Assembly (NCBI GenBank): GCA_014654775.1 | Contig: JACVZW010000018.1 | Location: 1-64,000 of the forward strand | Direction: 5' to 3' | Origin: Paracoccaceae bacterium | Lineage (GTDB): Bacteria > Pseudomonadota > Alphaproteobacteria > Rhodobacterales > Rhodobacteraceae | Length of the DNA: 64,000 nt | Shown: one piece after another, positions 9,143 to 25,957 of the stretch | How positions within the stretch are numbered: position 1 is the first letter of the stretch | Layout of the letters: every line of letters starts with the position of its first letter | Program-made: the position numbers and the translations under genes | Notes under the pieces: model-generated | What the model was told of the DNA's origin: nothing | What the model saw: the letters and a program-made list of their open reading frames with translations, nothing else | The model's database searches: none

Positions 9143-9310
9143 GGTCTGGCCTCCGTCTGGGTCGCGGTCATCCGGGTTGCGGGGGCTTTGGCACGGGGCG
9201 GCGGGCAGGGCAAGGGGGCCATCGGGGGCGCGCGACCCAACGTCAGGCTTGATCGGCGCGCAGGCTTCGCGATGATGCGACGGAGAGGCGTATCTGGGAG
9301 GAGTTGCCTG

Positions 9311-9706
9311 ATGAAGCGGATGATGATTGCGGCCGTGCTGGGTCTGGGACTGGCGGGAGCGGCCCATGCCTCGGACCCGGTGGAAGGGGTCTGGATGACG
9401 AAGCCGGATGACAACGGCAATTTCGGCCATATCGAGATCAAGCCCTGCGGGCCGGCTTTCTGCGGCACGCTGATCCGGGCCTTTGACAATACTGGGGCCG
9501 AGGTCGAGAGCCCCAATGTGGGCAAACAGATCGTCTGGGACATGATGGCCGCAGGTGATGGCGCCTATGAGGATGGCAAGGTCTGGTCGCCGGATCGGGA
9601 CAAGACCTACAACTCCAAGATGGAGCTGTCGGGCGACGGGCTTTCGGTCAAGGGGTGCGTTCTGGGCATCTGCCGGGATGGCGGCACCTGGACGCGGGTG
9701 AAGTGA
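9311..9706 (+). CDS. DUF2147 exported protein
   Basis: This 131-aa protein has a cleavable signal peptide ([20 protein letters not shown], cleavage after AHA) and a DUF2147 domain: [78 protein letters not shown]2147 forms a small lipocalin-like barrel and is usually periplasmic; its function is unknown. Four cysteines in the mature part could form disulfides. A GGGAGGAG site precedes the ATG at 9311. The gene is divergent from hisA, with an intrinsic terminator 20 bp after its stop. Confidence 0.88.
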
Positions 9707-17099: not shown

Positions 17100-17174
17100 T
17101 GGAGCGGGCGATGAGATTCGAACTCACGACCCTAACCTTGGCAAGGTTATGCTCTACCCCTGAGCTACGCCCGC
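17100..17174 (-). tRNA. tRNA-Gly (GCC), copy 1
   Basis: On the minus strand the acceptor gcgggcg pairs with cgcccgc and CCA is encoded. The anticodon arm is AACCT-TGCCA-AGGTT with anticodon GCC. The T loop gttcgaatc is canonical. It is identical over its 72-nt body to the copy at 17286-17360. Confidence 0.95.
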
Positions 17175-17285: not shown

Positions 17286-17360
17286 TGGAGCGGGCGATGA
17301 GATTCGAACTCACGACCCTAACCTTGGCAAGGTTATGCTCTACCCCTGAGCTACGCCCGC
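17286..17360 (-). tRNA. tRNA-Gly (GCC), copy 2
   Basis: Identical in sequence to the neighbouring tRNA-Gly copy, with encoded CCA and anticodon GCC. The two copies are 111 bp apart and probably transcribed together from the right. Between them lies a hairpin, AGGCCGCCCC / GGGGCGGCCT (17248-17270). Confidence 0.95.
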
Positions 17361-25056: not shown

Positions 25057-25171
25057 ATGAAAAACGGCGACGCCCGAGGGAGGAGGGCGCCGCCGCGTTC
25101 TTGCGTCCCGGCCAAGGGAGGAGGAGAGGCCGGTCGCTTTCCCGGCCCGGCCGAGGGAGGAGAAGAGGCCG
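25057..25171 (-). ncRNA. CcsR-like unit 5 with terminator hairpin
   Basis: Two hairpins with CCGGCC-type stems (25148-25171 and 25108-25133) are followed by a third, an 11-bp stem with one mismatch (25065-25075 with 25085-25095), which is immediately followed on the minus strand by TTTTT. The last hairpin thus doubles as intrinsic terminator while its loop still contains the motif. benE starts 74 bp further on the same strand. Confidence 0.78.
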
Positions 25172-25201
25172 AGTCCGAAACCTGTTACCGGCGGGCGGGG
25201 C

Positions 25202-25270
25202 GCGGCGATCCCCGGGAGGAGGTGGGGATCGCCGCTGGTCCGATGGCCCTCAGGGAGGAGGAGGAGGGCC
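25202..25270 (-). ncRNA. CcsR-like unit 4
   Basis: Hairpins: GGCCCTC 25245-25251 with GAGGGCC 25264-25270, and a perfect 12-bp stem 25202-25213 with 25224-25235. The loop of the latter is exactly the 9-nt motif plus one base. Between units 3 and 4 lies another small hairpin (GGGGCA/TGCCCC near 25285-25301) without the motif. Confidence 0.8.
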
Positions 25271-25310
25271 TGTCGCACGCCGTCGGGGCAGTTTTGCCCC
25301 GGAAAGGGTC

Positions 25311-25379
25311 GCGGCGATCCCCGGGAGGAGGTGGAGATCGCCGCTGGTCCGATGGCCCTCAGGGAGGAGGAGGAGGGCC
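25311..25379 (-). ncRNA. CcsR-like unit 3
   Basis: Hairpins: GGCCCTC 25354-25360 with GAGGGCC 25373-25379, and GCGGCGATCCCC 25311-25322 with 25333-25344 (12 bp, one mismatch). It is nearly identical to unit 4 across about 77 bp (25311-25387 against 25202-25278), so the two look like a recent tandem duplication. Confidence 0.8.
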
Positions 25380-25420
25380 TGTCGCACATCGTTGGAGCGG
25401 TTGCGCCCCGGAAGAAGGGT

Positions 25421-25490
25421 GCGGCGATCCCAGGGAGGAGGAGGGGATCGCCGCTTTTCCGCATGTCCCCAGGGAGGAGGAGGGGGACGT
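25421..25490 (-). ncRNA. CcsR-like unit 2
   Basis: Hairpins: GTCCCC 25465-25470 with GGGGAC 25483-25488, extendable by two pairs, and GCGGCGATCCC 25421-25431 with GGGATCGCCGC 25444-25454 (11 bp). The motif spacing is 39 bp. The spacer between units 1 and 2 contains a separate small inverted repeat (AGAAGC 25502-25507 with GCTTCT) without the motif. Confidence 0.8.
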
Positions 25491-25539
25491 CGGACCTGTC
25501 AGAGAAGCATACGCAGCGCGGCTGCTTCTGGATCAAAGT

Positions 25540-25608
25540 GCGGCGGCGCCAGGGAGGAGGAGAAGCGCCGCCGCTTTTGCTATGAACCCCGGGAGGAGGT
25601 GGGGTTCA
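25540..25608 (-). ncRNA. CcsR-like unit 1 (nearest DUF1127)
   Basis: The first hairpin is 8 bp (TGAACCCC 25583-25590 with GGGGTTCA 25601-25608) and lies 10 bp after the DUF1127 stop codon. The second is 10 bp (GCGGCGGCGC 25540-25549 with GCGCCGCCGC 25565-25574). Both loops carry the anti-Shine-Dalgarno motif. The motifs are 39 bp apart. Confidence 0.8.
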
Positions 25609-25618
25609 GCAAGAAACC

Positions 25619-25834
25619 TTATTTGCCGAAGGCCGCTTCGCGGGCCACGGCGGGGATGTCGGTGCGGGCGATGCCGAGATCGGCAAGCTCGCGGTCGGAA
25701 AGCTGCACCAGCTCGCGGACGGTCTGGTTGTACACGGCGCGGCGGGCGATCTGCAGCTTGAACTGGGCGAAGACGCCCGAGATGCGGTCAGCCAGCGAGA
25801 AGGACGCGGCGCGGGAGGAGTTGACATAAGCCAT
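25619..25834 (-). CDS. DUF1127 small protein (CcaF1-like)
   Basis: This 71-aa basic protein has the DUF1127 (YjiS-like) domain at its C-terminus: RRAVYNQTVRELVQLSDRELADLGIARTDIPAVAREAAFGK, with the diagnostic L(S)DRELADLGIAR core. The N-terminus (MAYVNSSRAASFSLADRISGVFAQFKLQ) is an amphipathic helix. In Rhodobacter sphaeroides the DUF1127 protein CcaF1, encoded upstream of the CcsR RNAs, binds RNA and affects sRNA maturation; the identical gene order here suggests the same role. The start ATG at 25834 has GAGG 9 nt upstream; a longer frame upstream is out of character. Gene and RNAs are probably one transcript. Confidence 0.9.
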   Translation of the reverse strand: MAYVNSSRAASFSLADRISGVFAQFKLQIARRAVYNQTVRELVQLSDRELADLGIARTDIPAVAREAAFGK

Positions 25835-25942
25835 TTCGATCAGCCTCAGTTTGTTACATCTGTTCTCAGGACAACGTTCTGTCGCGCTGTTACCGGAAAC
25901 ATGGGGCAAATGCTGCACCTGCACAATAGACGCGGTCTGCAA

Positions 25943-25957
25943 TGCTGCCATGCAGCA
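25943..25957. promoter_or_regulatory. Inverted repeat upstream of DUF1127-CcsR unit
   Basis: TGCTGC-CAT-GCAGCA is a perfect 6-3-6 inverted repeat 109 bp upstream of the DUF1127 start, in the 260-bp region shared with the divergent mrp gene. It has the same form as the site upstream of pyc. I could not assign a heat-shock-type promoter with confidence. Confidence 0.45.

Follow-up and report, generated by a model that had tools for sequence, protein, structure and literature searches.

In the window, by which we mean the whole 64,000-nt stretch of DNA analysed, a ccaF1-like DUF1127 gene encoding 71 aa was identified at 25619..25834 on the minus strand (Pfam PF06568, E-value 3.5e-13). This gene, which is conserved among relatives and is presumed to be the first gene of an operon, is followed on the same strand by an array of hairpins whose first loop motif starts 21 nt past the DUF1127 stop codon. 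Read on the plus strand, the loop motif GGGAGGAG starts at 25591, 25552, 25472, 25433, 25362, 25323, 25253, 25214, 25155, 25116 and 25078, with spacings, from the gene outward, of 39, 80, 39, 71, 39, 70, 39, 59, 39 and 38 bp. The minus-strand reading of all eleven loops is CTCCTCCC, and ten of the eleven motifs read GGGAGGAGG, the exception being at 25155. We take the loop motif to contain the anti-Shine-Dalgarno core of the ribosome.

The array consists of five hairpin pairs and a motif-bearing terminator hairpin, all on the minus strand. Pair 1 (CcsR1) lies at 25535..25617, with loops at 25591 and 25552, and is supported by a match to Rfam family RF02791 and by covariation. Pair 2 (25416..25495, loops at 25472 and 25433) gave 49.1 bits with the CcsR1 model, under the family cut-off, and was recognized by folding, while pair 3 (25306..25389, loops at 25362 and 25323) and pair 4 (25197..25280, loops at 25253 and 25214) scored 40.9 and 40.1 bits with the same model. 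The distal pair 5 is diverged and was placed by folding at 25100..25184, with approximate ends and loops at 25155 and 25116. The terminal hairpin (25060..25096, loop at 25078) was identified from its sequence and fold; directly behind it five U are encoded, which appear as A25060-25064 in plus-strand letters. It is a probable intrinsic terminator that has the motif in its own loop, and the terminator scan, which was restricted to loops of 3-8, listed no terminator here. The first-pass annotation had described eleven motif loops in inverted repeats, arranged as five hairpin pairs plus one between the DUF1127 stop and a T-tract; the eleven motifs and all ten spacings were reproduced exactly, both borders were found where it had placed them, each of the eleven motifs sits in the loop of a minus-strand hairpin upon folding, and the eleventh hairpin, the one left over in that scheme, is the probable terminator hairpin.

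The clustering of the motif is far from chance, since GGGAGGAG occurs 16 times in the window, always on the plus strand, against 5.1 occurrences expected from shuffled windows (none of 100 shuffles reached 16), and 11 of the 16 fall within the 521 bp of the array. The whole array stretch also folds 7.5 standard deviations below its shuffles (z -7.5), with none of 100 shuffles being as low. A strong strand bias was seen even outside the array, as the plus strand of the 64-kb window contains CTCCTCC 0 times and GGAGGAG 37 times. A twelfth CTCCTCCC was found at 25813-25820 inside the DUF1127 frame, covering codons 5-8. Folding gave no hairpin loop of the array type at 25813, and this copy could base-pair with the weak GAGG site of the DUF1127 gene itself; a copy at an equal distance (222) is also present in G002, a genome of the same genus.

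We assign the locus, a presumed operon, to the ccaF1-CcsR ("cuckoo") type of bacterial stress RNAs, which is already known, as had been proposed from the loop motif and its place behind a DUF1127 gene. The Rfam CcsR1 model (RF02791) matched pair 1 over its full length with 99.7 bits, well above the cut-off of 65.3, and the Pfam match of the gene agrees with this assignment. Pairs 2 to 4 scored below the cut-off, as did a distal match of 28.9 bits. The related Rfam family ar14 (RF02344, cut-off 58.8) gave three full-length matches in the array with 38.6-55.5 bits and one fragment with 14.6 bits, all below its cut-off, and over 25060-25183, in the region of pair 5, it scored 53.0 bits. By folding, all five pairs have the two stem-loops with CCUCCUCCC loops that characterize a CcsR unit. 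Another candidate CcsR locus, which scored 29.6 bits at C7:230785, was rejected; it has fewer than three CTCCTCCC and lies inside a 309-aa reading frame of the opposite strand.

The stems of pair 1 are maintained by compensatory change. In an alignment of the window with 38 of 80 named loci, which we chose ourselves from the best 80 of at least 531, RNAalifold gave 17 base pairs with two-sided changes in 16 of them, and 94.5% of the stem cells were paired; in 500 shuffles not one of the five measures came up to the observed value, and the slid controls were only 35-48% paired. The earlier expectation that stems are preserved by compensatory changes in relatives thus holds for pair 1, the pair that the covariation count covered, while pairs 2-5 were assessed by folding each of them individually. 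A class-wide search with the CcsR1 model gave matches with E-values of at most 0.001 in 11 of 192 genomes and a score above the Rfam cut-off in just one, the window's own. The model is too narrow to gauge the spread of the family, and loop patterns were therefore used for the surveys.

The arrangement resembles CcsR1-4 and ccaF1 of Rhodobacter sphaeroides (RSP_6037; RF02791) in its DUF1127 gene, its two-hairpin units with CCUCCUCCC loops and its 3′ terminator, but it differs in having five pairs rather than four and in that pairs 2-5 remain under the Rfam cut-off. The motif also occupies the terminator loop here; R. sphaeroides was compared through its published description. The array likewise resembles the cuckoo RNAs of the CIN1 locus (SmelA075 and SmelA099; ar14), with their identical loop, variable stems and varying number of modules, although it has eleven hairpins and the accessible text of PMC3927594 gives three for SmelA075 and four for SmelA099. 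CcsR-like sRNAs with short DUF1127 genes are equated with the CIN1 locus in the part of PMC10253847 that we could consult, and the module number of cuckoo RNAs is already stated to vary in that of PMC3927594.

The number of loops was then compared among relatives. In 2015, Reinkensmeier and Giegerich reportedly described the cuckoo RNAs as a family with two to four hairpins next to one another. CcsR1 is carried by 17 of 19 genomes of the genus, among them Tabrizicola sp. TH137, Rhodobacter ruber, R. kunshanensis and Gemmobacter straminiformis, which are now placed in Paragemmobacter. Past the DUF1127 stop, these 17 arrays have 6-15 loops: six in G010, eight in seven genomes (G002, G003, G008, G011, G013, G014 and G016), nine in G001, ten in G006, G009 and G015, eleven in G000 and G005, 13 in G018 and 15 in G007 and G017, with the loci of G011, G015 and G016 being cut by contig ends and G016 having four further loops on another contig. 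Among the 80 named DUF1127 loci, which are the best of at least 531 and hence the nearest relatives, 70 carry complete arrays with at least two loops; 20 of these have at least eleven loops, and four have only two. Several of the named loci (within L109-L118) come from genomes of the genus set, and the two counts overlap. Eleven loci that were examined closely, mostly picked for high counts and hence showing the upper range and not the average, have 9 to 26 loops. The largest, L237 (G179:C1:334000-338000), has 26 loops behind a DUF1127 gene, largely in the form of three-hairpin repeats that are about 140 bp long and nearly identical. All these counts are lower bounds, as arrays were counted by the exact motif and altered loops are missed; a 109-nt gap in the G001 array, for example, hides one interior loop without an intact motif. 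In a wider family sample, at least one close motif pair was found in 341 of 395 genomes, an upper bound for arrays because the reversed-pattern control also matched in several genomes (3 in the window's own).

The first-pass annotation had suggested that this organism has expanded the family. The published accounts of four CcsRs in R. sphaeroides (PMC10253847) and of two stem-loops in RS0680a (PMC3927594), as far as their accessible text goes, together give about eight loops there, and the eleven loops of the window could by that standard look like an unusual enlargement peculiar to this organism. The comparison of unit numbers across Rhodobacteraceae refutes this, and we give it next to no weight: with 6-15 loops in the genus, at least eleven in 20 of the 70 complete named arrays (best 80 of at least 531) and 26 in one relative, eleven loops is an ordinary array length. 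The array itself is an unremarkable addition to an sRNA family that is already known, and the part worth following is the box upstream of it, described below.

Units and hairpin strengths were compared in 13 of the 17 genomes with arrays (G010, G011, G015 and G016 being left out). Pair 1 is the best conserved unit in the genus, with a mean identity between genomes of 0.94, followed by pair 2 (0.84), interior pairs (0.79) and the last pair (0.76). The similarity of interior pairs to one another is slightly higher in the same genome (0.83) than across genomes (0.79). Neighbouring interior pairs reach an identity of 1.00 in G017; in the window the value is 0.96, with pairs 3 and 4 being 96% identical. 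Pair 4 is probably a recent tandem duplicate, being a near-copy of pair 3, and the simplest reading of these identities is that interior pairs are duplicated in tandem inside an array whose first pair does not change. Loop number ranges from 2 to 26 between relatives, apparently through duplication of interior pairs, with the loops mostly constant and the first pair fixed within the genus. The weaker hairpin comes first in 56 of 64 pairs (first hairpins average -15.8 and second hairpins -23.0 kcal/mol), and each of the 8 pairs departing from this order is the last pair of its array, pair 5 of the window included. The loop motif of the terminator hairpin is degraded in G001, G002, G009 and G014.

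We searched the genome for GGGAGGAG at ribosome-binding positions. The motif was found 3-10 bases ahead of an ATG 34 times, compared with 6 for the reversed pattern, and two related genomes gave 28 vs 3 and 36 vs 6. The 33 distinct start sites include 18 that open a frame of at least 60 aa and 15 that do not; full frames were searched against Pfam, after 70-residue stretches had matched in 2 of 10 cases, and 15 of the 18 candidate target frames had matches. Six candidates are transporter binding proteins (NMT1, DctP, TctC, Peripla_BP_4 twice and SBP_bac_1), and others encode ribosomal protein S8, a CO-dehydrogenase-type flavoprotein and an aldehyde dehydrogenase. Within the window, a DUF2147 gene (9296..9706, plus strand) is a predicted target, with GGGAGGAG 7 bases before its ATG here and likewise in two related genomes. 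Ten sites are found again ahead of the orthologous frame in one or both of the relatives, three of them in both, but recurrence alone proves little, since it also extends to at least three short frames that are probably false (L207/L295, L233/L306 and L236/L273). The genes constitute a candidate list and not a demonstration, as strongly translated genes have strong sites anyway, and the list is based on the 8-base match, with shorter matches outside the count. A start-site control with the canonical AAAGGAGG gave 8 matches vs 3, too few to compare gene classes.

For R. sphaeroides, the accessible parts of the published work (PMC10253847, PMC8625941, PMC8307010 and PMC3320616) report that the operon is cotranscribed from an RpoHI/RpoHII promoter, that RNase E and CcaF1 act in the maturation of the CcsRs and that the CcsRs interact with Hfq; the transcript is processed to separate CcsRs (PMC8625941, PMC10253847), and the FlhR mRNA is a named CcsR target (PMC8307010, PMC8625941). 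The role of CcaF1 is worded differently in the portions available, with raised CcaF1 hindering CcsR maturation in PMC8307010 and CcaF1 promoting it in PMC10253847. By analogy, we consider it likely, with a probability of roughly 0.85, that the window's operon gives a stress transcript that is processed to two-hairpin sRNAs repressing chosen mRNAs. Stress would induce one transcript that encodes the DUF1127 RNA-binding protein, includes the five two-hairpin units and stops at the terminator hairpin, and RNase E, influenced by the DUF1127 protein, would process it to sRNAs of about 70-110 nt. The loops of these sRNAs would present copies of the ribosome's anti-Shine-Dalgarno core and mask the unusually strong GGGAGGAG ribosome-binding sites of selected mRNAs, leading to less translation. 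To judge from the sequence, the weaker first hairpin of most pairs may open to pair while the strong second hairpin may cap the 3′ end, and the dose may be set by copy number, altered through tandem duplication of interior pairs. The natural variants in loop number make the question of dose testable.

Other modes of action can be weighed against this reading. A general translation brake, with the loops rivalling 16S rRNA at all strong Shine-Dalgarno sites under stress, would fit the presumed anti-Shine-Dalgarno core of the loop motif and the enrichment of GGGAGGAG ahead of start codons; we regard it as unlikely, because only 18 of 33 full 8-base sites open a frame of at least 60 aa, shorter matches being uncounted, and because FlhR mRNA is singled out as a CcsR target in the accessible part of PMC8307010. 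The many similar loops on a single presumed transcript, 26 of them in one relative, could also point to one long sponge, an uncut transcript that titrates either Shine-Dalgarno regions or the DUF1127 protein on a large scale, as CsrB does with CsrA. This we hold to be quite improbable here: loci with only two loops exist (the 4 of 70 complete arrays among the best 80 of at least 531), and the processing of the R. sphaeroides transcript to separate CcsRs (PMC8625941, PMC10253847), together with its FlhR target (PMC8307010, PMC8625941), favours small regulators over a long sponge, as far as the accessible text of these papers describes them. Least probable among these modes is that the hairpins serve mainly to process, stabilize or terminate the DUF1127 mRNA and that their loops do not pair in trans. 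The last hairpin is indeed a probable terminator, its loop motif has decayed in the four genomes named above, and G001 has in addition the interior loop without the motif; a mere stabilizer, however, would not need the motif, which detected loops keep while the stems diverge, with the qualification that exact-motif counting under-counts lost loops. We therefore favour processing to two-hairpin sRNAs that act on selected mRNAs.

The region upstream of the DUF1127 gene is strikingly conserved across 16 aligned loci. A candidate promoter, TTGTGC-17-CATGTT, was placed by eye in the most conserved part of this alignment, at 25898..25926 on the minus strand; a sigma-70 scan of the region returned no promoter, this candidate included. 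About 120 bp upstream of the gene, at 25940..25956 (given on the plus strand), lies the LTTR-type box CAATGCTGCCATGCAGC, whose first 15 bases agree at 14 of 15 positions with the published VtlR motif, reported for Brucella as CAATGCAGCCATGCA in the part of PMC12595884 that was accessible. The conserved block was spotted in the alignment before it was compared with the published motif. The 17-bp pattern, modelled on the window's own sequence and searched with one mismatch allowed, occurs a single time in the whole genome, at the array. Exact 17-bp copies were found in 15 of 19 genus genomes, always at the array locus, and two more genus arrays have one-mismatch copies, which places the box at 17 of 17 arrays; one-mismatch copies also occur elsewhere in several genus genomes.

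A test with the published letters at 74 array loci (from the best 80 of at least 531) found the motif upstream with at most two mismatches at 69 and at most three at 72, compared with 1 of 80 shuffled upstream regions and 0 of 75 downstream regions at up to three mismatches in the same set of loci. The box was likewise present within three mismatches at all eleven closely examined loci (9-26 loops), and at 3 of the 6 named loci that have one loop or none, of which two are unusable or cut (best 80 of at least 531). It was absent within three mismatches from all six plasmid DUF1127 loci examined (6 of 40 records, about 3 kb each). One plasmid, pAK2 of Paracoccus sp. AK26 (L343), has a DUF1127 gene and a CTCCTCC array without the upstream box, which argues against a need for the box at every array.

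The box recalls the VtlR/LsrB regulon of Rhizobiales. According to the accessible parts of the respective papers, VtlR controls DUF1127 genes and the sRNA AbcR2 in Brucella (PMC12595884) and AbcR1 in Agrobacterium (PMC7486931), and AbcR sRNAs regulate ABC transporter mRNAs (PMC5461406). Unlike in that regulon, the sRNAs here belong to a different family, and no LysR-like frame was seen beside trxB: the trxB-vtlR arrangement is called well conserved in the class in the available part of PMC7486931, but reading translations by eye within 1.5 kb of trxB in three genus genomes revealed no such frame. LsrB is called unique to Rhizobiales in the portion of PMC11975290 at hand. Among openly available papers, a body of literature with the main CcsR papers outside it, we found none joining VtlR or LsrB with CcsR.

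We tentatively propose, at a little under even odds, that ccaF1-CcsR of Rhodobacteraceae stands under a LysR-type regulator sharing the VtlR/LsrB box, as an old alphaproteobacterial module in which hairpin number (2-26) would be a dose knob that evolves freely. Such a stress module would couple the DUF1127 protein and the anti-Shine-Dalgarno sRNAs to a redox LysR regulator. The box points to a transcriptional regulator of CcsR that goes unmentioned in the accessible parts of the R. sphaeroides CcsR literature, and it would connect two sRNA systems studied apart, in Rhodobacter and in rhizobia.

Three further observations were made. On plasmid pAU20a of Aureimonas sp. AU20 (L345), a DUF1127 gene lies behind a gene annotated as LysR-type and is followed by three GGTCCTCCCCC, a series that is possibly a variant array. 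On pSymB of S. meliloti (L342), two CTCCTCC clusters precede a pair of DUF1127 genes, at a distance of 630-1000 bp, and do not lie behind it. Elsewhere in the window, two tRNA genes with equal Rfam scores were found on the minus strand at 17103-17174 and 17289-17360, their starts 186 bp apart.
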